Assembly (NCBI GenBank): GCA_023246145.1
Contig: JAHFIZ010000003.1
Location: 1-35,531 of the forward strand
DNA from: Candidatus Uhrbacteria bacterium
GTDB taxonomy: Bacteria; Patescibacteriota; Patescibacteriia; UBA9934
Direction: 5' to 3'
Length of the DNA stretch: 35,531 nt
Shown: positions 2,709 through 4,352 of the stretch, in pieces
Position numbering within the stretch: the first letter of the stretch is position 1
Layout of the letters: each line of letters begins with the position of its first letter
Notes under the pieces: generated by a model
Databases searched by the model: none
Told to the model about the DNA's origin: nothing
Seen by the model: the letters and a program-made list of their open reading frames with translations, nothing else
Made by a program: the position numbers and the translations under genes

Positions 2709-4109
2709 TTAGACTGACGTAATGTTCGCTTCCTTCAGCGCCTTCTCTGGCAGTGGAGAAGGAGCACCCATCATGTGATCCCTTGCCGCGCCGTCCTTAG
2801 GGAAGGCCATAACTTCTCGAATGTTTGCTTCTCCACGGAAGAGGGCCATGACGCGGTCCACACCAAGCGCTATTCCGCCGTGCGGTGGCGCCCCAAACTC
2901 AAAGGCCTGCATCATGTGGCCAAACTGCTCGTCGATAGTACTCGCTTCAAAGCCCATAATCTCAAACACTTTTCTAAGAGCCTGCGGTTCATGGTTACGG
3001 ATAGATCCTCCGCCGATCTCGAACCCGTTCAACACAATATCGTACTGGCTCGTGATGATGCTGCCAATATCTTCTTTGTTCATGAGCCTCTCTTTCCATT
3101 CAGGGAGTGCGGCGGAGAATGGGTTATGCGTAAACGTCCAACCACCGTCCTCCGTCTTTTCAAAGAATGGGAAATCAATCACCCAACAGAAGGCGAAGAG
3201 ATTTGGATCATTCTTATCTTCACGAATATCCGGACGATCAGTGCCATATTTCTCCACGGCTTCCTTGTACGTCATTCGCGGGAATGGGAGCGCCTGAATC
3301 CTGGCTTCCGGTTTGTGGGTTTTCACGAGTTCGATCAATAAGTTCTCGATCAAGCTCATGACATCCTCACGCTCTACAAAGCTCATCTCAAGGTCGAGCT
3401 GCGTAAACTCGGGCTGACGGTCACCGCGCTGATCTTCATCACGGAAACATTTTGCCAATTGGTAATATCGTTCTACACCAGACACCATGAGCAGCTGTTT
3501 AAACTGCTGGGGAGATTGTGGAAGCACGTAGAAATTTCCAGCATGCAAACGGGAAGGCACAATAAATTCTCGTGCGCCTTCGGGAGTACCTTTAGTAAGC
3601 ACCGGCGTTTCCACTTCTATGAATCCATTTTCACCCAAATACTTTCTCATGTGCTGGAACATGGCGTGACGTGAGCGAAGGTTGGCCTGCATGCGCTCGC
3701 TTCTGAGATCAAGGTAGCGATACGTCAATCGGGTTTCCTCGTTAACCGGCCGAGTATCTTTATCAATCTCAAACGGCGGCGTCTTGGCTTCGTTTAATAC
3801 CTTAACCGATTTCGCCAAGAGCTCGACTGTACCTGTCACCAGCTTGTCATTCACCTGCTTGGCTCCACGAGCCTGAACTACACCTTCAAATTCCACCACC
3901 CATTCCGGACGGATAGTGCCAGAAAGTTCTGCAAACTCTCCAAGCTCAGAAGGCACGGCCACAATCTGCAACAGACCATCTTTGTCCCGAAGGTCAAAAA
4001 AGGCCACCTTTCCCATATCCCGACGGGCATGAATCCAGCCAGCCACCTTCACCGTCTCCCCCACCTTTTGAACCGTTTGTGACGTAAATAAACGCTCCAT
4101 ATCGTGCAT
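2709..4109 (-). CDS. aspS: Aspartate--tRNA ligase, bacterial type without the GAD insertion domain
   Basis: Class II synthetase that charges tRNA-Asp. The 466 residues show the N-terminal anticodon-binding OB fold (about 1-105, with GWIHARRDMGKVAFFDLRD), motif 2 at 222-240 (FRDEDQRGDRQPEFTQ) and motif 3 near 413-424 (GIALGVDRVMAL). Bacterial AspRS is usually near 590 residues with a GAD domain between motifs 2 and 3. Here YGTDRPDIR (288-297) leads almost directly into CWVIDFPFFE (308-317), so that domain is absent. Residue M32 sits where some non-discriminating AspRS have a His, which weakly suggests a tRNA-Asp-specific enzyme. Two ATGs are possible (4109 and 4100). The gene is monocistronic and sits behind a promoter and a T-box-like attenuator at 4128-4254. 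Confidence 0.95.
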   Translation of the reverse strand: MHDMERLFTSQTVQKVGETVKVAGWIHARRDMGKVAFFDLRDKDGLLQIVAVPSELGEFAELSGTIRPEWVVEFEGVVQARGAKQVNDKLVTGTVELLAKSVKVLNEAKTPPFEIDKDTRPVNEETRLTYRYLDLRSERMQANLRSRHAMFQHMRKYLGENGFIEVETPVLTKGTPEGAREFIVPSRLHAGNFYVLPQSPQQFKQLLMVSGVERYYQLAKCFRDEDQRGDRQPEFTQLDLEMSFVEREDVMSLIENLLIELVKTHKPEARIQALPFPRMTYKEAVEKYGTDRPDIREDKNDPNLFAFCWVIDFPFFEKTEDGGWTFTHNPFSAALPEWKERLMNKEDIGSIITSQYDIVLNGFEIGGGSIRNHEPQALRKVFEIMGFEASTIDEQFGHMMQAFEFGAPPHGGIALGVDRVMALFRGEANIREVMAFPKDGAARDHMMGAPSPLPEKALKEANITSV

Positions 4110-4127
4110 TATCTGGTGCCCGTGAAT

Positions 4128-4171
4128 AAAAAATACCCTTAGAGAACAACCTATAGGTTATTCGTTAAGGG
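4128..4171 (-). terminator. Attenuator terminator of the aspS T-box
   Basis: The stem CCCUUA/UAAGGG encloses a second helix, GAAUAACC/GGUUGUUC, with a UAUA loop. It is followed by U-A then UUUUUU (4133-4128), just before the aspS start. Its 5' arm overlaps the antiterminator, so the two folds exclude each other. Confidence 0.85.
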
Positions 4172-4254
4172 CGAATTTCTCCGCGGTGCCACCTTAATTT
4201 AGACTTTTCTTTGATTTTCCTCAATCGCGGGTGTCAGACCGCGAGCAACTACCC
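4128..4254 (-). promoter_or_regulatory. Compact T-box riboswitch upstream of aspS (specifier GAC)
   Basis: Read on the minus strand. A short hairpin (CGCGG 4243-4239 with CCGCG 4230-4226) has an 8-base loop, UCUGACAC, containing GAC (4235-4233), the Asp codon. About 28 bases later comes a complete T-box antiterminator: UUAAGG (4197-4192), bulge UGGCACC (4191-4185), GCGGA (4184-4180), GAAA tetraloop, UUCGC (4175-4171), CCUUAA (4170-4165). In the bulge UGGC, the C matches the G discriminator of tRNA-Asp. The 3' arm is shared with a competing terminator: CCCUUA (4171-4166) with UAAGGG (4141-4136), an inner 8-bp helix with UAUA loop, then six U's (4133-4128). Uncharged tRNA-Asp should favour read-through into aspS. 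The usual long stem I, stem II and pseudoknot are missing, resembling ultrashort-stem-I T-boxes of actinobacterial ileS, but with a transcriptional output. Confidence 0.85.
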
Positions 4255-4258
4255 ACGC

Positions 4259-4286
4259 ACCATACCCCATAGAATAGGCCTGTCAA
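4259..4286 (-). promoter_or_regulatory. Promoter of aspS
   Basis: A sigma70-like promoter: TTGACA (4286-4281), 16-base spacer, TATGGT (4264-4259). The predicted start, near 4252-4254, leaves only about ten bases before the specifier hairpin, which supports the small size of the T-box leader. Confidence 0.8.
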
Positions 4287-4320
4287 GAAGGGGATAAGTC
4301 TTTTCATAGAGAAAAGATCA

Positions 4321-4352
4321 TGTTATGGTCGCTTAGTCGTTCCAACCAGGAG
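4321..4352 (+). promoter_or_regulatory. Extended -10 promoter and Shine-Dalgarno of the gene at 4358
   Basis: TGTTATGGT (4321-4329) is an extended -10, and AGGAG (4348-4352) lies five bases before the GTG at 4358 and decides that start. The promoter is divergent from that of aspS. Confidence 0.6.

Follow-up and report, generated by a model that had tools for sequence, protein, structure and literature searches.

The window analysed here is a 35,531-nucleotide stretch of a Candidatus Uhrbacteria contig, whose genome is labelled G000 among the compared genomes. On its minus strand lies an aspartyl-tRNA synthetase gene, aspS, whose product scores 628 bits against the NCBIfam model PRK00476 (cut-off 443) and for which homology makes ATG 4100 (MERLFTS) the more likely start. 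The closest AspRS records among named genomes are from Candidatus Uhrbacteria (67-68% identity), so the CPR assignment holds. The leader (4126-4286, minus strand) runs in the order promoter, hairpin, purine-rich linker, antiterminator, terminator and aspS, with the following features:

4259..4286, minus strand: sigma-70-type promoter TTGACA-N16-TATGGT (consensus scan, 10/12)
~4252, minus strand: predicted transcription start, from the promoter position
4225..4244, minus strand: ultrashort stem I, a 6-bp hairpin UCGCGG-UCUGACAC-CCGCGA (from the sequence, with counterparts in G008, G010, G018 and G007)
4233..4235, minus strand: specifier GAC (Asp), followed by A4232, complementary to the anticodon GUC of the genome's own tRNA-Asp
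4198..4224, minus strand: linker with purine flanks AAAAG-UCU-AAA at the place of stem III (31 nt up to the T-box GGUGG)
4166..4196, minus strand: antiterminator (RF00230 positions 183-216; fold -6.7 kcal/mol)
4188..4191, minus strand: UGGC facing the GCCA end of tRNA-Asp (G73), from own-genome tRNAs and from the agreement of the bulge base with tRNA base 73 in the different synthetase gene groups
4128..4171, minus strand: intrinsic terminator, CCCUUA...UAAGGG then UAUUUUUU (U run; fold -17.1 kcal/mol; equivalents in G007, G008, G010 and G018)
2709..4109, minus strand: aspS, aspartyl-tRNA synthetase (NCBIfam PRK00476 and TIGR00459, above cut-off)

The apical loop of stem I is 8 nt long (UCUGACAC), and the antiterminator comprises helix A1 (UAAGG/CCUUA), the bulge UGGCACC, helix A2 (GCGGA/UUCGC) and a GAAA loop. 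In the fold, CCCUUA is a strand common to the terminator and the antiterminator, which makes the two mutually exclusive, with computed energies of -17.1 versus -6.7 kcal/mol; the same overlap occurs in G000, G007, G008, G010 and G018. A simple terminator scan missed the window terminator owing to its interrupted stem. The parts that the original prediction had read from the letters (a GAC hairpin, an antiterminator with UGGCACC and GAAA, a terminator with U run, and aspS behind them) were thus all recovered in place on the minus strand; position 4286 of its range belongs to the -35 box and not to the RNA, the transcript probably starting at ~4252. As a separate observation, the stem I strand CGCGGU (4238-4243, minus strand) can pair with the T-box ACCGCG (4182-4187) in the terminated fold, which may be fortuitous or represent a further OFF conformation.

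Both matches to tRNA-Asp that had been proposed, GAC with GUC and UGGC with GCCA, agree with the genome's own tRNA-Asp, which has the anticodon GUC (GTC in DNA) and a 3' end, GCCA, complementary to the UGGC bulge; the three tRNA-Thr and the tRNA-Gly of the same genome end in UCCA, tRNA-Val and tRNA-Pro in ACCA. In a set of 99 T-box leaders from CPR genomes, the bulge base was A for thrS (57/58) and glyS (5/5), C for aspS (13/15), asnS (8/8) and trpS (3/3), and U for valS (5/5) and proS (2/2), where UGGA before thrS and glyS fits U73, UGGU before valS and proS fits A73 and UGGC before aspS and asnS fits G73. The two of 15 aspS leaders with U may reflect wobble, trpB is an exception (C in one, U in two), and the tRNA ends of one genome stand in for other CPR genomes in this comparison. 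The cognate codon was found in the hairpin loop of 51 of the 99 leaders, against 29.7 expected with gene labels shuffled (sd 3.2, maximum 42; none of 5000 shuffles reached 51). The aspS leaders of the genus (four genomes) have GAC-A as the specifier; in G018, whose first gene NCBIfam identifies as asnS, AAC-A occupies the same site. A loop triplet varying freely before aspS would have refuted the original prediction; GAC is present in all four. Other aspS-related leaders carry GAC or AAC, both AspRS-related codons.

Two covariance searches had been suggested, with RF00230 and with a custom model. RF00230 matched the antiterminator only (4167-4199, 26.4 bits, E 2.3e-4 genome-wide), which was the sole match in the genome with E below 1; at gathering thresholds Rfam returned no match in the window, the gathering score of RF00230 being 93. 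The window shares with the model the antiterminator helices and the UGGN-ACC bulge, whilst model positions 1-182 have no counterpart. The custom hold-out model R2, built from G008, G010 and G018 with the window genome excluded, matched the whole 83-nt element (4164-4246) at 70.6 bits and E 1.3e-12; its best match beyond this minimal group had E 6.5e-5. An earlier model, R1, contains the window and was left out of the homology evidence in favour of R2; its strong matches in the class sample were only G000, G010 and G018, G008 being unlisted in that sample. A first MAFFT alignment with leaders of sister genus g7 (A2) placed their second hairpin on stem I and was not used to build models.

The minimal form was found in four genomes only (G000, G008, G010 and G018), in which the hairpin-to-T-box spacing is 31-34 nt, the three relatives keeping it within 3 nt, versus 90-120 nt in other aspS T-boxes. 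The alignment columns AA.AGU..AAA.U.AGGUGGCACCGCG are invariant across the four and, on our analysis, resemble the purine flanks that PMC7583486 describes for stem III, with stem III itself gone. A motif search of the 31 nt that link stem I to the T-box in the window found no S-turn or F-box motif, and the window leader shows no recognisable distal stem I, K-turn, stem II, IIA/B pseudoknot or stem III. By eye, neither G000 nor G010 has a K-turn, and a K-turn-like layout GGC-NNN-GA...GA-GCY is present in G007 and G018. Since the congener G007 has, besides a short stem I, a retained stem II whose S-turn and F-box motifs precede the T-box, loss of stem II within the genus is the simplest history, and we infer that the minimal form probably arose in this way from a G007-like short-stem-I T-box. 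T-boxes before bacterial-type aspS were not seen in other genera of the family.

Taken alone the window hairpin is weak evidence, because 1.1% of dinucleotide shuffles of the 60-nt leader produce a hairpin with 6 bp or more and GAY plus purine in the loop; the comparative evidence carries it. Folding energy of the leader is uninformative as evidence: the isolated leader is no stabler than shuffles (z -0.5), and the stem I hairpin is not the minimum-energy fold alone in G008, G010 or G018. Covariation is part of the evidence for stem I. Twelve aspS-type hairpins show both-side changes in all five pairs and a covariation score of 1.00 versus 0.26 when shuffled (0/500), which supplies the covariation in CPR hairpins that had been looked to as a check. 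As these twelve were selected as hairpins, a pairing-blind test is the fairer measure: the flanks of NYACCRA before thrS form at least five pairs in 23/36 occurrences versus 1.6% of control positions, and those of NN[GA]ACA before aspS/asnS at least four pairs in 18/42 versus 7.7% of controls.

Judged by sequence, transcriptional T-boxes with ultrashort stem I appear common across CPR, with apical-loop specifiers that fit thrS, aspS, asnS, valS, glyS, ileS and proS. The transcriptional ultrashort T-box that had been predicted is supported and is not an isolated case: many CPR synthetase genes carry such leaders, and T-boxes as such are not rare in CPR. RF00230 matched at E 1e-4 or better in 149 of 381 genomes of the class and 125 of 380 of the phylum (lower bounds, given strict filters), 10 and 13 genomes respectively exceeding the Rfam cut-off; the phylum figures suggest that the gathering threshold misses most such switches. 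Outside the class, inspection by eye identified short-stem leaders at 20 more loci of the phylum; their loops include AUC before ileS, GUC before valS, ACC before thrS and GAC before aspS. Another family of the same order has thrS T-boxes with a long stem I and IDTM-like motifs, so long- and short-stem forms coexist in CPR. The fetched sample was partly chosen for short spans and gives no share of short-stem forms; most comparison loci were named by motif, ten being confirmed by NCBIfam.

Without any experiment, we consider it very probable that the window element regulates aspS as a T-box riboswitch by transcription attenuation and retains only a specifier hairpin, a short linker rich in purines and an antiterminator/terminator pair. 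Uncharged tRNA-Asp would place its anticodon GUC on the loop GAC and its GCCA end on UGGC, and this pairing would stabilise the weak antiterminator against the stronger terminator, such that a shortage of aspartyl-tRNA would switch aspS on; charged tRNA would be unable to engage the bulge and transcription would stop. tRNA binding, sensing of charging and read-through are inferred, with comparative evidence and no bench data behind them, from parts, conservation, covariation, a promoter position, a gene identity, two tRNA matches and a terminator/antiterminator overlap that are directly observed.

A larger stem I at 4260-4340, with transcription starting further upstream, is suggested by the whole-region minimum-energy fold of 4110-4340, which pairs ACGACUAAGCGACCAU with AUGGUGCGUGGGUAGUUG; we give this very little credence. 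The 10/12 promoter sits between that upstream arm and the hairpin and is conserved in the genus, with its layout kept in G010 (TTGACA..TATGGT), G008 (TTGACA..TATCTT) and G007 (TTGACG..TATCTT), and only 14 nt separate the end of the predicted -10 box from the hairpin, too few for a long stem I. Similarity between leaders is strong from the hairpin to the T-box, unlike the 100 nt upstream of the promoter, which are unconserved in three of four pairwise comparisons, including those with G008 and G018; G000 versus G010 is the exception, with some upstream similarity (z 3.3) that counts against our reading. No AGUA or IDTM motif was seen in the upstream region, and the window leader has no long stem I with IDTM. 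The placement recurs elsewhere: 43 of 54 CPR short-stem leaders with a cognate hairpin have a promoter score of at least 9/12 (shuffled controls 17%), several with a perfect TTGACA-17-TATAAT, at a median of 20 nt from -10 box to hairpin. The original prediction, which had listed the absence of a long stem I, stem II and pseudoknot and would have fallen had orthologues shown a larger stem I upstream, survives on both counts: the sigma-70 promoter abuts the hairpin, as it does in the aspS leaders of the genus, and the 31 nt contain no S-turn or F-box.

The leader could also be a decayed T-box, whose antiterminator survives whilst tRNA sensing is lost and aspS is attenuated at a constant level, as most known tRNA-contacting modules are missing and Rfam recognises the antiterminator only. 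This we regard as improbable, given that G000, G008 and G010 (and, with AAC, G018) jointly retain the hairpin, the loop GAC-A, the linker length and the terminator/antiterminator overlap where other sequence has diverged; random loss would not keep the spacing within 3 nt. Short stem I being typical of translational T-boxes (PMC7583486), the element might alternatively resemble the actinobacterial ileS T-boxes and the terminator be incidental. That can hardly be sustained against a stable hairpin that, in each of the five genomes checked, overlaps helix A1 and leads into a U run, with the U run before the start codon and no Shine-Dalgarno sequence within the alternative helix.

By every available sequence test the window element is a T-box, and it lies outside class III as defined. 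The four recognised classes (PMC10482949) comprise long-stem-I forms that have stem II, glycine-only long-stem-I forms that lack it, short-stem-I forms that require it and mostly act on translation, and an intermediate class; none of them combines a short stem I and a terminator with the absence of stem II. With class III (Nocardia farcinica, Mycobacterium ileS) the window shares the apical-loop specifier in a short stem I, the purine after the codon and the standard bulge. That class is mostly translational and needs stem II with S-turn and IIA/B pseudoknot, with described apical loops of 5-6 nt (PMC10482949), whereas the window has a terminator and no recognisable counterpart of those modules, the K-turn or stem III, being more reduced than the actinobacterial ultrashort T-box. 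Class II (Bacillus subtilis glyQS) is likewise transcriptional without stem II, yet is glycine-specific with a long stem I and tRNA-elbow-binding IDTM, against a 6-bp stem I and an Asp codon here; CPR glyS leaders may also combine a short stem I with no stem II, a possible parallel to glycine class II. CPR short-stem-I T-boxes (thrS, valS, aspS, ileS and glyS; for example G007 aspS, L216, L247 and L274) share with the window the ultrashort stem I, the terminator and the promoter just upstream; many of these keep a K-turn-like base, those of aspS and valS keep stem II with S-turn and F-box motifs, and their hairpin-to-T-box distance is two to three times that of the window.

The window element appears smaller than any described T-box class and the extreme of the CPR short-stem type. 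We lean towards regarding it as a fifth class that acts on transcription and has a short stem I but neither stem II nor pseudoknot nor stem III. In this class a codon hairpin placed ~31 nt from the antiterminator would be enough for reading the tRNA, and the window element would be the end point of a CPR-wide radiation of transcriptional short-stem T-boxes that also gave rise to forms with two codons (Asp and Asn). According to reviews, a transcriptional T-box generally requires a long stem I, and one with a short stem I requires stem II. Departures from the first rule appear widespread in CPR genomes, and the window leader departs from both. If tRNA is bound, this would be the minimum RNA for reading a codon, the end of a tRNA and its charging state, and its small size would suit structural studies and design. 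As stem II is needed for tRNA binding in published short-stem-I T-boxes (PMC7583486, PMC10482949), the stemless-II form might bind tRNA weakly. The results suggest that CPR bacteria, despite reduced metabolism, keep amino-acid-specific control of synthetases. Our literature search found no paper linking T-box riboswitches with CPR/Patescibacteria, although most subscription papers lay outside it and a prior report is not excluded.

Several other leaders were observed in the comparison set, among them two-specifier forms (GAC plus AAC) in sister genera. In five genomes (G001-G005) the leaders of an asnS-aspS operon (L008, L010, L012, L021 and L017) each have two specifier hairpins, with loop GUGACA (GAC, Asp) followed by loop CAAACAA (AAC, Asn), the stem of the latter showing both-side changes in five pairs. 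The hairpins apparently lie inside a three-way junction (ACCGA/UCGGU or CACUGA/UCAGUG, the outer helix by eye only), and there is one UGGC antiterminator, G73 being present in both tRNA-Asp and tRNA-Asn; a two-tRNA T-box is possible. Sister genus g7 (G014-G017; L330, L329, L163 and L164) has a similar pair ahead of asnS, AGG-CCUGACA..-CCU (GAC) and then CGCUG-CUUAACGAC-CAGCG (AAC). T-boxes before full-type aspS in other CPR families (L247, L255, L256, L214 and L217) carry AAC (Asn), not GAC, which suggests a non-discriminating AspRS under tRNA-Asn control. Some thrS leaders (e.g. L281, L283, L285, L286 and L322) have a short stem I with loop YACCRA plus a second hairpin, both seemingly inside an outer helix (in L285, AACAGC/GCUGUU), and GAUUG and CUAAG are conserved there; judging by eye, this may be an undescribed junction that replaces stem II. 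Further CPR T-boxes precede trpB (L251, L307 and L316), trpS (L155) and, in L055, L057, L059 and L291, an unidentified gene family with the motif KIRMREAL.
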